DNA of 32,004 nucleotides, from the NCBI GenBank assembly GCA_943355055.1, contig CALREA010000013.1:1-32004 (forward strand), read 5' to 3'. The DNA is from Candidatus Peribacteria bacterium. GTDB taxonomy: Bacteria > Patescibacteriota > Gracilibacteria > UBA1369 > UBA12463. Both the position numbers and the translations under genes were made by a program. Positions within the stretch are counted from its first letter, which is position 1. Each line of letters opens with the position of its first letter. Under the pieces are notes generated by a model that was not told the DNA's origin, did not search any database, and worked only from the letters and a program-made list of their open reading frames with translations. Below are positions 1,078 to 13,544 of this stretch, piece by piece.

Positions 1078-2337
1078 ATGCAAAAATTTCTCGTTCGCGG
1101 CGGACACTCACTCAAAGGCGAAGTGACGGTAAGCGGCTCAAAAAATGCAGCACTACCAATTATTGGGGCGGCGCTCCTCACCGACGAGCCGACTACTCTG
1201 ACCAACGTCCCCGAGATCAATGATGTCTACTCGCTTCTCACGATTCTCAAAGAATTTAATATCAAATTCACCTTCGAGAATCACACCCTCACGATCAACG
1301 CAAAAAACTTCAAATACAAAACACCACCAGAAGAGCTCGTAGCGAAAATGCGCGCATCAATTTTGATCGCACCGGCACTACTCTACCGTCATGGAAGCTT
1401 CGACATGGCCTATCCGGGTGGCTGTGTGCTAGGGAAAAGACCACTCGATACGCATTCATTTGTGTTTAGAAAAATGGGAGCGCACGTTTTGGAAGATGAG
1501 AAAATGCTCAGCGTAACATGGAAAAAACGCACACCTACCACGATGGTTCTCCCTGAAATGAGTGTCACAGCAACAGAAAACGCGATTATGATGGCCGCGA
1601 TCACACCGGGCGAGACACAGATTAGACTCGCCGCCGCCGAACCACACGTGCAGGACCTCTGTCATTTTATGAAAAAAATGGGATGCAAAATTGACGGCAT
1701 CGGCACCCACAATCTCACGGTGCACGGTGTGAAAAAACTCAATGGTACGAAATACGCGATCTGTGGTGACTACCTCGAGGCGGGAACCTACGCGCTCGCC
1801 GCGGCAGTGACGAAGGGTGACATCAAAATTCACGGCCTCCAGATGGACTATCTCGATAGCTTCTGGCAAAAATTAGAAGAGGCGGGCGTGCCGTTTACAT
1901 TGGAAAAAAACTCCATCCATATCAAACCGGCTAAAACCATTCGCGAAGTGAAGGTTCTACGCACTGCCGTCTACCCAAGCTTCCCCACCGATCTGCAAGC
2001 CCCGTTCGGCGCGCTGCTTACCCAATCGAAAGGCGTGAGCAAAGTATTTGAAACATTGTTCGAAGGCCGCCTCGGCTACCTGTTTGAGTTAGAAAAAATG
2101 GGCGCTCATGTCGAACTCCTGAACCCTCACCAAGCCCTCATCATCGGTCCAACCAAACTCACCGGCAGACCCGTCTCCAGCTGCGACATTCGCGCCGGCG
2201 CCACCATGGTCCTCGCCGCCCTCGCCGCCAAAGGCGAGACAATCATCTCCGACATCAAATATATTGATCGTGGTTACGAACGATTAGATGAAAAACTGCG
2301 CTCACTGGGTGCGGATATAGAGAAGGTGGATATGTAA
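1078..2337 (+). CDS. murA: UDP-N-acetylglucosamine 1-carboxyvinyltransferase
   Basis: MQKFLVRGGHSLKGEVTVSGSKNAALPIIGAALLTDEPTTLTNVPEINDV and later RAGATMVLAALAAKGETII are MurA/EPSP-family hallmarks. Confidence 0.95.
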   Translation: MQKFLVRGGHSLKGEVTVSGSKNAALPIIGAALLTDEPTTLTNVPEINDVYSLLTILKEFNIKFTFENHTLTINAKNFKYKTPPEELVAKMRASILIAPALLYRHGSFDMAYPGGCVLGKRPLDTHSFVFRKMGAHVLEDEKMLSVTWKKRTPTTMVLPEMSVTATENAIMMAAITPGETQIRLAAAEPHVQDLCHFMKKMGCKIDGIGTHNLTVHGVKKLNGTKYAICGDYLEAGTYALAAAVTKGDIKIHGLQMDYLDSFWQKLEEAGVPFTLEKNSIHIKPAKTIREVKVLRTAVYPSFPTDLQAPFGALLTQSKGVSKVFETLFEGRLGYLFELEKMGAHVELLNPHQALIIGPTKLTGRPVSSCDIRAGATMVLAALAAKGETIISDIKYIDRGYERLDEKLRSLGADIEKVDM

Positions 2338-3830
2338 GTTTCGGTAGATCCCTCCGACACTCCGTAAATTTTTCTCCCTAGCTCGAGATGGCGCGCATGA
2401 TTGCTTCTCACGTCGCCAATAATACCAAATCTGGTAGCAATAGTTTTGAGTCCCAAACCGGCCGACTTGAATGCATATTTATTTTTCGCGGTCATAGCTG
2501 ACCATTCTTGAAAAGTTGGAACTTGCTCAAGAATCGCAGTCCTCAGCTCTTCTAATGAAATTTCTTCGTCACGTAATACTTCACATGCGCCATATATTTC
2601 CCGCCCTAGCACTAGGTGATACGCGCGTTTTTGAAATGAAGTTCCGGCAATTCCGAATCTCGTCGCTATAGCAGAAAGTCCCAACCCGGAGATTTTTTCA
2701 AAAGCATTCATTTCTTTTTGTGTCATAATTGACCACTGTTCCGCTGTTGGAATTTGCCGAATAATAGCGGTTTTTAATGCTTCCAGCGAAATCCCATTTT
2801 TCTCACATTCTCCATAAATTTTTCTCCCGAGTTCCAGATGAACTGAAGTATGATTAATGGGGATCCCTTTGACACCAAAGCGAGTGGCGATAGCAGTAAG
2901 CCCCAATCCTCCCGCATGAAAAATAATCCTATCTTTTTGTGCCATTTGCGCCCATTTTTGCGCGGTCGGTACACGTTTTATGATTTCAGCACGCAATACT
3001 TCCTGGAATCCAACATCAAGTTTTCCTTGAATGCCATCGGCAAAAAGCAAGAGACATATTTGCTCGTCCCACGCGGCAGATGATGTGTAAAGGATACGGG
3101 TTACACGGTCGGGGTATTTTTCCAATAACTGTTCTTTGGTGAGCGACATCAGCTCATTTCGAGCTAACGTTCCCTGAATCACAAATGTTGCCTCGTTGGC
3201 TTCATTGCAAATCAGAACTTGCTTATCGAGACGAGGAATTTCAACAATATAATACGAACTCGGCCTCATCATCGTATTCGTAATTTCTCCATGGCACACG
3301 AGAATATCATCGGTAAATATTCCATGCTTCTGAAGGAGAGAAATAAATTGAGAAAAGCGATGCGATGATTTTGTATCAACGATCTCACTCCTCGACTCAA
3401 GAGAATGCTCAGGTGGAGTTTTTGAACCCGGAGGAAGAATAATTCCAGGCAAGGCCACGGAAGTGATATTGAGTGAACGAAGAAGATCATCAAAGGAGTC
3501 GAGAGACTTACCCTGGAGTATATGTGAAAGCCGTTTACCGGAGAAGGATAAAATATCATCAATAGCAATGCGCTGCGTTCCATTAAAAATTTCAGAACTC
3601 AACCGCCGTTCATCTCGATGAGAAATTCTTTTACTCGAGGTAACGCCAAGACTATCTTTGAGCCATTTCTCCAGCGCAATGAGCGTACCGGTAAGTTCCT
3701 GGTATTTCGTCTCACTTCCATCATACGTCTGCGCGATCCACAGAGCACGCAACACCTGCTCGCGATAACTCGAGGCAAACTCTTTTCGTTCAGGCTCCGG
3801 TAGTGATTCAAAATAGTGAAGGATATTCAT
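2274..3830 (-). CDS. Uncharacterised protein with three tandem ~70-75 aa HTH-like repeats (paralogue 2)
   Basis: Repeats of form PTAxxWxxMxxKxxxxFxxxGLGLxxIATRFGIxG.....xxHLELGRKIYG. N-terminal domain shared with the upstream ORF 3844-5829. C-terminus runs antisense into murA. Confidence 0.8.
   Translation of the reverse strand: MNILHYFESLPEPERKEFASSYREQVLRALWIAQTYDGSETKYQELTGTLIALEKWLKDSLGVTSSKRISHRDERRLSSEIFNGTQRIAIDDILSFSGKRLSHILQGKSLDSFDDLLRSLNITSVALPGIILPPGSKTPPEHSLESRSEIVDTKSSHRFSQFISLLQKHGIFTDDILVCHGEITNTMMRPSSYYIVEIPRLDKQVLICNEANEATFVIQGTLARNELMSLTKEQLLEKYPDRVTRILYTSSAAWDEQICLLLFADGIQGKLDVGFQEVLRAEIIKRVPTAQKWAQMAQKDRIIFHAGGLGLTAIATRFGVKGIPINHTSVHLELGRKIYGECEKNGISLEALKTAIIRQIPTAEQWSIMTQKEMNAFEKISGLGLSAIATRFGIAGTSFQKRAYHLVLGREIYGACEVLRDEEISLEELRTAILEQVPTFQEWSAMTAKNKYAFKSAGLGLKTIATRFGIIGDVRSNHARHLELGRKIYGVSEGSTETYISTFSISAPSERSFSSNRS
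3585..3782. repeat. Near-identical block shared with 5584-5781 (copy A)
   Basis: About 198 bp that aligns by eye with under ~12 mismatches to 5584-5781; encodes SSYREQVLRAL..SKRISHRDERRLSSEIF. Confidence 0.8.
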
Positions 3831-3843
3831 ACAAATTCAGCGG

Positions 3844-5829
3844 TTAAATATTTACTCCATAAATCTTCTTTCCAAGTTCGAGAAAATAAATCAGATTATG
3901 TAGAGGATCTCCATCCACCCCAAACCTCCTCGCAATCGCCATAAGCCCCATTCCCGCAATCTTGAATGTTAATTTCTCTTTCCAATGAATCCCAGTCCAC
4001 ATCTCAGCCGTCGGAACTTGTGCAAGAATCGCCGCCTTTAGCTCTTCATCAGTCAACTCAGGGGGCTCTTCATAGGCTAACGCTTCGCACTCTCCATAAA
4101 TTTTCCTTCCCAGCTCTAGACGATATGCTCGATTATCGAAAGGATTTCCCTCGATTCCAAACCTCGTCGCGATTTTAGAGAGTCCCATTCCTGCAGCTTT
4201 GAATTGTAATTTTTCCTTTCGCTTCATCCTCGCCCACATTTCCGCTGTCGGAACTTGCGCAAGAATCGCAGCCTTCAGTTCATCAGGAGAGACTTCACGT
4301 TCGTCTAACGCCTCACATTCGCCATATATGACTCTTCCCAGTGCAAGGTGATAGGCTCGATTATCAATAGGATTTCCCTCAATTTTGAACCTAGTCGCAA
4401 GCCCATTGAGTCCCATTTTTTTGTATTGAGTCCCATTTTTTTTTACCTTAAATGCTTTTCTTTTTTCTTGATTCATCCCTGCCCACGCTTCCGCCGTTGG
4501 AACTTGCACAAGAATCGCAGCCTTTAGCTGATCATCATTCAGATATTCGTATGCAAACACTTCGCTTTCTCCATAAATTTTACTCCCTAATGCAAGGTAG
4601 ATTTGAAGATGACTAAGAGGGTTTCCTTTCACCCCAAACCTCGTAGCTATGGCGGCAAGGCCCATCTCTCCAATTTTGAATTTTTCTTTCTCTTTTGTCT
4701 TCATCTTCATCCACATTTCAGCCGTCGGAATCTGTTCGAGAATAGCGGTCTTCAGCTGATCATCAGTCAACTCAGACTGTTCTTCATATTCCAACTCTTC
4801 GCACTCCCCATAAATCTTCCGCCCAAGTTCCCAGTGGTACTTACGGCTGAAAATAGGATCCCCTGCCATAACCCCAAATCTCCTGGCGATGGCTTTAAGT
4901 CCCATCCCTCCAACCTTGAACTTCAGCTTTTCTCTTTGAATCATCCCCGCCCACATCTCAGCCGTCGGAATAATTTTCAAAATTTCCACACGCAGAGCCT
5001 CCTGATCACGCACATCAACTTTTGCCTGCACGCCGTCCGCGAATAACAACGCAAAAAGCTGCTGTTCCCATGTAATCGAAGATGTATAGACAATGCGTTG
5101 AACCAGATCAGGATACTGGTCCTGTAGCTGTTCTTTCGTTAGCGTCATTAAAACGCTTCTTGGTAAATTTCCCTGAATCACAAACGTCGCCTCACCCACT
5201 TGATCACACAGAAGAATTTGCTTATTCAAGCGGGGGATCTCGACAATACAGTAGGAAACTTTTCGCATCATATGCTCAGAAATTTCCCCATGACAAACAA
5301 TGAGGTCATCAGTAAAAATGCCATGTTGTTGTAACAATCCAATAAGCTGGGAAAGTCGTTGCTGGAAGTGGATTTCACGCCCTCCGTTAGCATATTCGCC
5401 ACTGCCTTCCGGGATGGTATTTTCTCCCGGCGGAAGAATAATTCCCGGCAGCGCGACAGAGGCGATATTGAGAGAGCCCAAGAAGTCTTCGAGAGAATCA
5501 GGTGACGCACCCTGTAATATGGAAGCAAATCGTCTGCCTGAGTGCGCTAAAATATCATCAATGGCGATATGCTGTTTACCATCAAAAATTTCAGAACTCA
5601 ACCGCCGTTCATCTCGATGAGAAATTCTTTTACTCGAACTCACGCCAAGGCTATCTTTGAGCCACTTCTCCAGCGCAATGAGCGTACCGGTAAGTTCCTG
5701 GTATTTCGTTTCACTTCCATCATACGTCTGCGCGATCCCCAGCGCGCGCAACACCTGCTCACGATAGCTCGAGGCAAACTCCACGCGCTGCTCGGCTGAT
5801 AAAGTGTCGAGATGTTTGAGGATATTCAT
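3844..5829 (-). CDS. Uncharacterised protein with five tandem ~75-80 aa HTH-like repeats (paralogue 1)
   Basis: Start placed at MNILKHLDTLSAEQRVEF by comparison with the paralogue (MNILHYFESLPEPERKEF). Five PTAEMW...GMGLxxIATRFGxxGNP...YxLELGRKIYG repeats. Confidence 0.85.
   Translation of the reverse strand: MNILKHLDTLSAEQRVEFASSYREQVLRALGIAQTYDGSETKYQELTGTLIALEKWLKDSLGVSSSKRISHRDERRLSSEIFDGKQHIAIDDILAHSGRRFASILQGASPDSLEDFLGSLNIASVALPGIILPPGENTIPEGSGEYANGGREIHFQQRLSQLIGLLQQHGIFTDDLIVCHGEISEHMMRKVSYCIVEIPRLNKQILLCDQVGEATFVIQGNLPRSVLMTLTKEQLQDQYPDLVQRIVYTSSITWEQQLFALLFADGVQAKVDVRDQEALRVEILKIIPTAEMWAGMIQREKLKFKVGGMGLKAIARRFGVMAGDPIFSRKYHWELGRKIYGECEELEYEEQSELTDDQLKTAILEQIPTAEMWMKMKTKEKEKFKIGEMGLAAIATRFGVKGNPLSHLQIYLALGSKIYGESEVFAYEYLNDDQLKAAILVQVPTAEAWAGMNQEKRKAFKVKKNGTQYKKMGLNGLATRFKIEGNPIDNRAYHLALGRVIYGECEALDEREVSPDELKAAILAQVPTAEMWARMKRKEKLQFKAAGMGLSKIATRFGIEGNPFDNRAYRLELGRKIYGECEALAYEEPPELTDEELKAAILAQVPTAEMWTGIHWKEKLTFKIAGMGLMAIARRFGVDGDPLHNLIYFLELGKKIYGVNI
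5584..5781. repeat. Near-identical block shared with 3585-3782 (copy B)
   Basis: See copy A. Confidence 0.8.
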
Positions 5830-5852
5830 AGGACTTTTGATAAGAGAATTAC

Positions 5853-5880
5853 ATAATAGCACATATTATATAAATGTCAA
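5853..5880 (-). promoter_or_regulatory. Sigma70-type promoter for the repeat-protein pair
   Basis: Minus strand TTGACA (5880-5875), 16-nt spacer, TATTAT (5858-5853), 23 nt before the start at 5829. Confidence 0.65.
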
Positions 5881-8998: not shown

Positions 8999-11947
8999 AT
9001 GAAGCTACGAATCGCATCAGAAATATCTCTTGGAGTACCTCGACTCCTTCTCGGCATTGTAACGGTAAAAAACGCCAATAATTCGCGAACTAATTCGGTG
9101 ATTCCGCAGCTCATACGCGGAACCATCGCCTCCAAGCAGAAAGAGCTTCAAAAAGTAGTGGCGGAAAGCCGTGAAAGTGTTGAGCTTTGGAAGTTGATTG
9201 ATAAAAAACCGCGCATTCTGGACGTGCTCGAGACGGTGTCACAAAACAACTATCTGACGTTCGGAAATTCTTTGGAGGATTTGGCATTTTATTTTTCCGT
9301 ACGATACGAAGTCCCTGTCGTCGCCCTCGACCTCGACGAGGTCTCGGGCGACATCGAACTCTGTCGCGCCGGCGGTAACGAGCCATTTCGCCCACGTGGA
9401 TCGATCAAACTCGAACACGCGGAATCGAACGAGGTCATCTACCGTGATCGCGCCGGCGTCGTCTGCCGCGACTGGAGCAAGTATATGTCTCAGCGAACGG
9501 CTCTCACCAATGACACGCGAAATGCCGCGTGGATTATTGAAACCATCGGAGAGGTATCTCTCGAGAAAATGAAATCAATGCTCAAGGACATGGAAAAAAC
9601 CATTCGCACATATTGTGGCGGCACCGTGGAAATTGCTATTATCGGAGAGACCGTCACCGAAATCGATCTCGGTGTTACCGGAATCTCAGGCGTCAACGAC
9701 AGCGAGTACAAGCCGGATCCACGCCGTCTCGCCTTTCATCAGAAGCTCGTAGAAAATTTCGAAAAAATGCGGAAGGATAGCCTGTCAGGGAAAAAAGAAA
9801 AAGTCGGCATGTCACTTTCAGCAAAGGCTCCGATCGAACAACTTCCGCCTCCTCCCGCGGAACAGGAACTCTCCGCCCCTATCGAAGAAAAAATGATATC
9901 AGCACCCGAGGAAGAAAAAGAACTCCCTCCCCCGAACGAAGAGAAATTATTACCGGCATCCGAGGAAGAAAAAGAACTCCCTCCTCCTGCCGAAGAAAAG
10001 CTTCTACCTACTCCGACGAAGAGTGAAACTTCTCTCATCGAAATGCTCACCAAGAAATTTACAAAATCACCTCCGGCACGCAACGATGAGCCCATTCTCC
10101 TGAGCGCGCGTATTCAATCCATCCTAAAAAAAGCCATCCAAAAGGCATTCCCGGACGTACAGGAAATCAAAGATTTCGAACCGTTCGTAGAATTAGCCAA
10201 AGATGCATCGCATGGTGATTATGCTACGAACGCGGCAATGGCACTCAGTAAGACCCTCAAAAAAGCGCCACAGCAGGTCGCAAATGCCATCATGGAACAT
10301 TTTGAAAAACCACACCCTGGCGAGGGCGCACCTGGGGTGGATTTTCTTTCAAAACTTGAATTCGCGCAGCCGGGATTTATTAATTTTACCCTTTCTCGCC
10401 CATGGGTAGAGGCGCAACTTCCAGAGATTATTTCGAAGAAATCAGTCTACATCAAGCCGGATATCGGGCAGAAGCAAACCGTTCTCGTCGAGTATTCTTC
10501 ACCGAATATCGCGAAGCCTCTTGGTGTCCATCACCTGCTTTCTACGATTATTGGACAGGCGCTCTATAACATATATGACTATCTCGGCTACAAGACTGTC
10601 GCGATTAATCACATCGGCGATTGGGGCACGCAGTTCGGGAAATTGACCGTTGCCTACAAGCTCTGGGGAGATAAAAAAAAAGTGGAAAAAGATCCGATAG
10701 AAGAACTTCTCAAGCTCTACGTGGATTTTCACAGTGAGGTGGAGAAGGACAAAGTTCACGGCGAAGAATTGGAGCAGCAAGCCCGGGACGAATTCAAAAA
10801 ATTAGAAGATGGCGATAAAGAAAATACAAAATTGTGGCAATGGTTCGTGGCGATGAGCCTGAAAGATGCGCAGAAAACCTATGATGCGCTCGGAGGAATT
10901 CATTTTGATAAAATCCAGGGAGAGAGCTTCTACAGCGACAAAATGGACGATATTGTGAAAGAAGGAAAAGAGAAAAAAGTTTTTGAAGTTGGAGAAGAGG
11001 GTGCACTCATCGTGAAATTCGAGAATGATAAATACACGCCATTCCTCGTGCAGAAATCCGATGGTGCCACGCTCTATGGCACGCGAGATCTCGCCGCCGC
11101 CAAGTATCGCCTAAAGACATGGGAACCGCTCAAAGTTCTCTATGTTGTCGACGTGGCGCAATCACTTCACTTCCAGCAGTTATTTGAAACGGCAAAATTG
11201 CTGGAGTGGTATCCCGATAACAGCACACCTCTCGTCCACGTCTCCTTCGGACGAATGCGTTTCGAGGACGAAAAAATGAGTACACGTAAAGGAAATATCG
11301 TTAGATTAAATGAAGTACTCATGGAGGCGGTTGAGCGCGCGAAGAAGATCGTGGCTCAAAAGTCCCCCGACGTTCCCGAAAAAAAGCACGCAGACCTCGC
11401 GCGCATCATCGGCATCGGCTCGGTAAAATACAATATACTTTCCCAAAATCGCACTACCGATATCGTATTTCAGTGGGACAAGATTCTCTCACTTGATGGC
11501 AACAGTGCGCCATATTTGCAATACACCCACGCTCGCGCCAGCAGTATTCTCAAAAAAGCGAACACGGAAAAACGTAGCGACCGCAAAAAATCTGAAAATC
11601 AATTTACCCTATTCGAAGCGATTTCCAAATCTGAACGTAGTGAAGATTCTGATCCCGCTTCCGATGGCGTATCCGAAAAAGCCCCTTGTGAGCTGATTCT
11701 CGCCGCCCACCTCCTCAAATTCGCCGAAGCGGTCACCCGTGCCGCCGACGAGTACCGTCCAAATCTCATCACGAACTACCTCTACGAGACCGGAAAACTC
11801 TTCAATACATTCTACCACGAAGTACCCGTTCTCCAGGCAGAATCAGAGAGCCTCCGCGATTTCCGCCTCGCCCTCACACGCGCCACCAAGCTTGTTATCA
11901 AAGAAGGCCTCGAACTTATCGGTGTCGAGGTCCCGGAGGAGATGTAA
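8999..11947 (+). CDS. argS: Arginyl-tRNA synthetase with N-terminal B3/B4 (tRNA-editing-like) domain and Pro/Glu-rich linker
   Basis: C-terminal two thirds: SSPNIAKPLGVHHLLSTIIGQALYN, HIGDWGTQFGKL, DEKMSTRKGNIV (KMSKS), LQYTHARASSI. N-terminus VPVVALDLDEVSGDIELCRAGGNEPFRPRG...EVIYRDRAGVVCRDW...RTALTNDTRNAAWIIE matches the PheT-type B3/B4 domain pattern. Confidence 0.93.
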   Translation: MKLRIASEISLGVPRLLLGIVTVKNANNSRTNSVIPQLIRGTIASKQKELQKVVAESRESVELWKLIDKKPRILDVLETVSQNNYLTFGNSLEDLAFYFSVRYEVPVVALDLDEVSGDIELCRAGGNEPFRPRGSIKLEHAESNEVIYRDRAGVVCRDWSKYMSQRTALTNDTRNAAWIIETIGEVSLEKMKSMLKDMEKTIRTYCGGTVEIAIIGETVTEIDLGVTGISGVNDSEYKPDPRRLAFHQKLVENFEKMRKDSLSGKKEKVGMSLSAKAPIEQLPPPPAEQELSAPIEEKMISAPEEEKELPPPNEEKLLPASEEEKELPPPAEEKLLPTPTKSETSLIEMLTKKFTKSPPARNDEPILLSARIQSILKKAIQKAFPDVQEIKDFEPFVELAKDASHGDYATNAAMALSKTLKKAPQQVANAIMEHFEKPHPGEGAPGVDFLSKLEFAQPGFINFTLSRPWVEAQLPEIISKKSVYIKPDIGQKQTVLVEYSSPNIAKPLGVHHLLSTIIGQALYNIYDYLGYKTVAINHIGDWGTQFGKLTVAYKLWGDKKKVEKDPIEELLKLYVDFHSEVEKDKVHGEELEQQARDEFKKLEDGDKENTKLWQWFVAMSLKDAQKTYDALGGIHFDKIQGESFYSDKMDDIVKEGKEKKVFEVGEEGALIVKFENDKYTPFLVQKSDGATLYGTRDLAAAKYRLKTWEPLKVLYVVDVAQSLHFQQLFETAKLLEWYPDNSTPLVHVSFGRMRFEDEKMSTRKGNIVRLNEVLMEAVERAKKIVAQKSPDVPEKKHADLARIIGIGSVKYNILSQNRTTDIVFQWDKILSLDGNSAPYLQYTHARASSILKKANTEKRSDRKKSENQFTLFEAISKSERSEDSDPASDGVSEKAPCELILAAHLLKFAEAVTRAADEYRPNLITNYLYETGKLFNTFYHEVPVLQAESESLRDFRLALTRATKLVIKEGLELIGVEVPEEM

Positions 11948-12808: not shown

Positions 12809-12898
12809 GGAGAGATGGCCGAGCGGTTGAAGGCGATAGTCTTGAAAACTATTAGGCGCGCAAGCGTCTCGTGAGTTCGAATCTCACTCTCTCCGCCA
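12809..12898 (+). tRNA. tRNA-Ser(TGA)
   Basis: GGAGAGA acceptor pairing with TCTCTCC, long variable arm, GTTCGAATC T-loop, anticodon loop CTTGAAA (TGA at 12843-12845), encoded CCA. Confidence 0.95.
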
Positions 12899-12935: not shown

Positions 12936-12983
12936 GCGATTCCGTTCCCGTACCCGATTCCATTCCCGCACCCGTTCCCAGTT
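12936..12983. repeat. (TTCCCG)n-like degenerate repeat
   Basis: GATTCCGTTCCCGTACCCGATTCCATTCCCGCACCCGTTCCCAGTT; related strings at 6871-6890, 25671-25685 and 27212-27238. Confidence 0.6.
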
Positions 12984-13299
12984 AACCCTTCAGCGCCAAA
13001 TCCCTCAAATACCCGGAAATCGAAGTATATCCCTGTTTCAGCGCTTTTTTTTCGATTTTTTTCTTGTCTTCTGCGGTAATTCTGAAACGGATAACTTCTT
13101 CGTGATTTTTTCTCTCTTTTGCCTCAGTAATATAATCCGGGAGATATTGAATAAGTTCAGGGACATCCTCATGCAAAAATCCCTGATCAATCCTCGCGGC
13201 AGGACACGTAACATGAGTTTCCATTTTATTCAGTCTTTCGAGAGTACAATCATATTTTTTATTACCTACATTTACATAAAACGTAATTGAATTTTTCAT
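12982..13299 (-). CDS. HicB-like antitoxin with C-terminal ribbon-helix-helix-type segment
   Basis: Overlaps the HicA-like ORF by 4 nt; C-terminal RFRITAEDKKKIEKKALKQGYTSISGYLRDLAL. Confidence 0.65.
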   Translation of the reverse strand: MKNSITFYVNVGNKKYDCTLERLNKMETHVTCPAARIDQGFLHEDVPELIQYLPDYITEAKERKNHEEVIRFRITAEDKKKIEKKALKQGYTSISGYLRDLALKG

Positions 13300-13544
13300 G
13301 GAGAGATTATATTTGAAGATTTAATAATATTCGAGATTTCGACTTTATAATACGTTGGGCAATCGTTCCCGTGTACCGGAAAAACAATTTCTTGATCTAT
13401 TTTAGGATGATTAAACTTCTGATGACTTCCTTTGCCTTGTGAATGTTCAAATCCAAGGTACAAGAGAACATGCGCAACTTGAGAGTATCTAAGCGTCGCC
13501 GGTCTCTCCAGAAACTTTTTCAACAGCTTCTTTTTCTGTGACAT
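13296..13544 (-). CDS. HicA-like mRNA interferase toxin
   Basis: GFEHSQGKGSHQKFNHPKIDQEIVFPVHGND: HicA/YcfA GSH motif and context. Confidence 0.8.
   Translation of the reverse strand: MSQKKKLLKKFLERPATLRYSQVAHVLLYLGFEHSQGKGSHQKFNHPKIDQEIVFPVHGNDCPTYYKVEISNIIKSSNIISP

Follow-up and report, generated by a model that had tools for sequence, protein, structure and literature searches.

A CtdA-type B3/4 domain fused to arginyl-tRNA synthetase in Peribacterales: a putative cis-editing module with an altered pocket

Can an arginyl-tRNA synthetase (ArgRS) carry a proofreading domain of its own? About half of the aminoacyl-tRNA synthetases, ArgRS included, are described without an editing domain, and none is known in ArgRS according to the discoverers of the deacylase CtdA (PMC10018355, 2023). 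The question is raised by one gene in a stretch of 32,004 nucleotides from a Candidatus Peribacteria bacterium (contig CALREA010000013.1), the whole of which is referred to here as the window. The original prediction, made from the letters alone, recognised a B3/B4 domain joined to a synthetase that is not normally described with one, and on this rarity the published accounts of ArgRS bear it out (PMC10018355).

The gene forms one uninterrupted open reading frame, also across 9718-10120, the segment over which read-through had been left to confirm. Its parts are collected in Table 1. The B3/B4 domain had been placed at residues ~1-240, which is close: the CtdA-like fold extends to ~220 and the linker continues to ~370. 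The Pfam family B3_4 (PF03483) matches the core of the domain with 36.8 bits against a cut-off of 29.3 (E 4e-9). A score above the Pfam gathering cut-off and a predicted B3/4 fold place the domain in the B3/4 superfamily, so the assignment is upheld by both sequence and fold comparison. The Pro/Glu-rich linker does lead into a complete ArgRS, as had been claimed. The ArgRS part matches the NCBIfam argS equivalog (TIGR00456, 478 bits), and its three Pfam domains, N-terminal, catalytic and DALR, all score above the curated cut-offs (TIGR00456/PF00750).

Table 1. Features of the fusion gene, in window coordinates.
Feature	Position	Strand	Residues (aa)	Remarks
B3/4-ArgRS fusion gene	8999..11947	+	982 in total	ATG start, single frame, zero internal stops
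CtdA-type B3/4 domain	8999..9658	+	1-220	Range of the AF2 model compared with CtdA; Pfam core 77-190
Pocket segment PVVALDLDEV	9314..9343	+	106-115	CtdA counterpart PVGGENIEAY; Leu110 at the Arg-type Glu position
GGNEPF	9371..9388	+	125-130	B3/4 motif kept
EVIYRD..GVVCRDW...RTALTND	9431..9514	+	145-172	Motif kept in part; NWR of CtdA is SKY here
WIIE	9530..9541	+	178-181	Glu181 aligned to Glu of CtdA FILE
Pro/Glu/Lys-rich linker	9659..10108	+	221-370	~150 residues
ArgRS N-terminal domain	10109..10393	+	371-465	Pfam Arg_tRNA_synt_N
ArgRS catalytic domain	10418..11476	+	474-826	Pfam tRNA-synt_1d; GVHH at 509-512, KMSTR at 759-763
DALR anticodon-binding domain	11516..11944	+	840-982	Pfam DALR_1

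A genus sister (L023) encodes a protein of identical 982-aa layout with 91% identity to the window protein. The layout, as a fusion or as an adjacent gene pair, recurs in the Peribacterales (Ca. Peregrinibacteria, Patescibacteria) in families f1, to which the window belongs, f2, f5, f8 and f14; conservation thus holds among sister genomes and reaches deeper relatives. Compared with L023, the window protein shows a dN/dS of 0.052 for its B3/4 part and of 0.045 for its ArgRS part; values for the window domain lie at 0.05-0.14. The domain is under strong purifying selection, and the linker changes faster than the domains on either side. The shared layout at this identity and the low dN/dS in both parts indicate that read-through of the linker is real. 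An assembly chimera or frameshift artefact is effectively ruled out by the same low ratios and by the occurrence of the fusion in separately assembled genomes.

The nearest solved relative of the domain is CtdA and not the PheRS beta subunit. With the single sequence, a search of the PDB returned CtdA (9f7e, 3e-10) and the related 9mkl (1e-7); a profile of 12 relatives reached 5.5e-29 and 2e-30 respectively, the best PheRS-beta entry scoring only 0.0025. An AF2 model of residues 1-244 (pLDDT 90.8, pTM 0.89) superposes on CtdA 9f7e over its whole length, model range 1-220 (Z 24.4, 212 residues, 2.4 A), and on PheRS-beta with Z 15.5 over 169 residues. With hhalign, the B3/4 alignment gave a weak, partial match to one PheRS-beta-like sequence. 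Of the kinship originally proposed, to PheRS-beta and to stand-alone B3/4 proteins, the latter part stands, in the form of free-standing CtdA, and PheRS-beta is not the nearest relative. CtdA strips canavanine from tRNA(Arg), and the ArgRS of its host discriminates poorly against canavanine, by ~13-fold (PMC10018355). A CtdA-type domain on ArgRS is therefore the right proofreading family on the right synthetase. The window genome (G000, 1.14 Mb, 96% complete) has a separate B3/4 gene on contig C4 with a strong PheRS-beta-like match; a second CtdA-type B3/4 domain was not found in this genome.

The pocket of the window domain departs from the Arg-type. GGE is replaced by VAL, within PVVALD, and NWR by SKY, and a 9-residue stretch around FGxxP is missing. 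This loss of the Arg-type pocket motif was overlooked in the original prediction, and because of it neither activity nor specificity is to be assumed for the window copy. The EPF strand, Asp150, Cys156-Arg157, Trp159, Arg166-Thr167 and Glu181 are retained, the last at a position which we take to be that of the editing-site Glu of PheRS-beta (E334).

Among 45 diagnostic columns, defined as those conserved in Glu-type (Arg-type) B3/4 domains, the window keeps 24 and its family f1 24-29. The fusions of f5 and f14 mostly keep 36-45, those of f8 14-17 and those of f2 14-18. The GGE motif is present in f5, in most f14 fusions and in nearly all non-Peribacterales ArgRS fusions in which the pocket is covered. 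The EPF strand is lost from f8 domains and the entire catalytic block from f2 domains, and a model of the f2 domain still has the CtdA fold (Z 15.5). The f8 and f2 versions are eroded and probably dead, and their losses imply that the domain can persist without activity. The Peribacterales thus show a series of ArgRS-borne domains from intact to eroded, with the window copy in between.

The association with ArgRS extends beyond fusion. Several f14 genomes encode the B3/4 domain as an open reading frame of its own, directly upstream of ArgRS. In some of these pairs the B3/4 stop and the ArgRS start lie a few bases apart (TAAAAATG, TAAACATG); in others one stop codon alone separates the frames. 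Such pairs suggest that the two modules travel together, fused or not. Near the ArgRS start, the N-terminal domains of two split f14 ArgRSs (L033 and L035) contain low-complexity inserts that resemble each other (GER.ARARTSE..GSAT.ERSEL); their close relative L034 lacks this insert.

In the ArgRS tree, the fused and split Peribacterales enzymes fall in one starred clade together with one unfused member. Families elsewhere in the Patescibacteria bear the B3/4 domain on a different ArgRS type (L166, L168, L169, L202, L208, L213, L218, L221). A single clade of B3/4-bearing ArgRSs is rejected by the AU test on 31 rows under a simple model (p-AU 1e-43), and a single clade of Arg-type B3/4 domains is compatible with the data (p-AU 0.12). 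On these two tests the Arg-type domain appears to have been attached to unrelated ArgRS types. As one Arg-type clade is not rejected, an independent origin of the domain itself is not claimed. In a set of 80 ArgRS loci drawn from across the bacteria, the domain occurs in four, all of them Peribacterales. Three tRNA-Arg genes lie directly 5' of the fusion in two of the loci from other families (L166:3701-4009, L168:3673-4008).

ArgRS is one of several partners. Other Patescibacteria carry a CtdA/B3/4-class domain C-terminally on LysRS-I, LysRS-II and MetRS and N-terminally on TyrRS and TrpRS. Two genomes (G681 and G682) have four B3/4 domains each, on ArgRS, TyrRS, LysRS-II and TrpRS, the TyrRS partner in G682 being assigned by domain similarity because its frame runs off the contig. 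None of ArgRS, LysRS-I, LysRS-II, TyrRS, MetRS and TrpRS is known to have a post-transfer editing domain of its own. Some TyrRS or TrpRS enzymes (L205, L207, L211, L177) have both YbaK-type tRNA_edit and B3/4 domains, and two LysRS-II enzymes (L162, L165) combine B3/4 with an HD domain, L165 additionally with DUF2000. One apparent B3/4 match (L060) proved to be a chance match to an SNF2 helicase.

On the tree the B3/4 domains group by synthetase partner. The residue after the pocket GG follows the same division, in counts that include related sequences and are not independent: it is Glu in CtdA, in 9/9 non-Peribacterales ArgRS fusions and in most f5/f14 fusions; His in 5/5 MetRS; His or Tyr in 12/12 TyrRS; Phe in 8/8 LysRS-I and 3/3 TrpRS; and Phe, Tyr or Asp in LysRS-II. 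None of the 37 fusions to Lys, Tyr, Met or Trp enzymes has Glu here. The PVGGEN pocket segment of CtdA was aligned to the PLHAFD segment of PheRS-beta. Pocket residues that track the partner fit substrate-tuned editing. On a wider and more tentative view, which we find plausible without quite favouring it, CtdA/B3/4 may be a general plug-in proofreading module of the Patescibacteria, placed on these six kinds of synthetase, with the pocket re-tuned to the non-cognate amino acids of each partner, and the window module would be one re-tuned to a substrate other than canavanine.

The fused enzyme is not the sole ArgRS of its genome. Two more of a distant type, both unfused, are encoded at L062 (G000:C2:24422-26272) and L063 (G000:C4:13825-15798), with 654 and 668 aa, so that part of the tRNA(Arg) charging would escape editing in cis. 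Sisters in the window's genus have none of this type, one (L064, L065) or apparently this type alone (G001). For genus g2, which belongs to the same family, the fused ArgRS is the only one found. Elsewhere in the window, two small open reading frames at 12982-13544 on the minus strand, just downstream of a tRNA-Ser gene (12809-12898), have by eye the look of a HicA/HicB-type toxin-antitoxin pair. Two adjacent paralogous frames at 2274-5862, also on the minus strand, contain internal repeats (ILEQVPTAEMWAGM...GLGLKAIATRFGVKGNP...LGRKIYGECE).

We lean towards reading the window protein as an ArgRS with a CtdA-derived post-transfer editing domain in cis, the specificity of which has changed or is waning; here catalysis, substrate and reach in cis are what we infer. 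The ArgRS part (residues ~371-982) would charge tRNA(Arg), the flexible 150-residue linker would allow the N-terminal domain to reach the acceptor end of the tRNA, and the domain would cleave the ester bond of tRNA charged with a non-cognate arginine analogue. Canavanine would most likely be the ancestral substrate. In the window family the substrate may now be a different one, or the activity may be reduced, as the exchanges of GGE for VAL and NWR for SKY suggest. The same erosion is also what would be expected if the domain were no longer catalytic in the window lineage and were kept as a tRNA-binding or structural appendage of ArgRS, an outcome that is credible if somewhat unlikely. It accords with the stepwise decay of the active-site block from f5/f14 through f1 to f8/f2, and with the retention in f2 of a CtdA-like fold devoid of that block. 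However, the window copy keeps the motif residues listed above, from EPF to Glu181, and its rate of evolution is as low as that of the ArgRS part; the retained motifs and the strong purifying selection make an altered domain that still works more likely than a dead one.

The remaining alternatives concern what is edited and where. The original prediction had allowed for either proofreading or a D-aminoacyl-type activity supplied in cis. Proofreading in cis remains the best-supported idea. A D-aminoacyl-tRNA deacylase can draw on the general notion of editing and nothing further, and is highly improbable, since the fold is that of CtdA/PheRS-beta B3/4 and no DTD-family match was found for the window protein among Pfam families at E<=1. 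It is improbable, too, that other mischarged tRNAs are the main targets, with the domain acting in trans and ArgRS serving as no more than its carrier. The CtdA family does work as a free-standing protein (PMC10018355), and the window genome offers no other CtdA-type domain for such a task, but pocket residues track the fused partner and the gene pairs tie the domain to ArgRS specifically.

If catalysis and substrate are as we infer, the window protein would represent cis editing on a synthetase hitherto without a known editing domain. It would be the first cis-editing ArgRS, a natural one bearing the canavanyl-tRNA(Arg)-editing family. Bacteria with reduced genomes would then handle amino-acid discrimination with one re-tunable module on up to four synthetases per genome. 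The specificity code of B3/4 would become directly testable through the partner fusions, and the editing domains borne by this one enzyme, ranging from intact to eroded, would constitute an evolutionary series. The open-access literature yielded no report of a fusion between B3/4 and ArgRS or any other synthetase, an earlier description elsewhere being possible, and the set of fusions as a whole is apparently unreported.

Among known systems, CtdA (9f7e, 9mkl) shares with the window domain the full-length fold, the sequence profile and the link to tRNA(Arg) and ArgRS. It differs in being free-standing, whereas the window domain is fused in frame to ArgRS, and in having the GGE pocket and NWR in place of PVVALD and SKY. 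A guanidine riboswitch or canavanine operon frequently, not obligatorily, accompanies CtdA; no such riboswitch was found by Rfam near the window fusion, the window and 17 related loci yielding tRNAs only. The B3/B4 domain of the PheRS beta subunit has the common superfamily fold and is likewise a cis-editing domain on a synthetase, but is far more distant in sequence. Bacterial ArgRS (TIGR00456) is a complete enzyme, as in the window, and its published members have no editing domain in their descriptions (PMC10018355). Among the earlier reports found, the one nearest to these fusions concerns PheRS-beta B2 domains in CPR bacteria, attached N-terminally to TyrRS and C-terminally to LysRS (PMC5370408). 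There a PheRS-beta module has been transferred to other synthetases, likewise within this phylum; B2, however, is an RNA-binding OB fold and not the editing domain.
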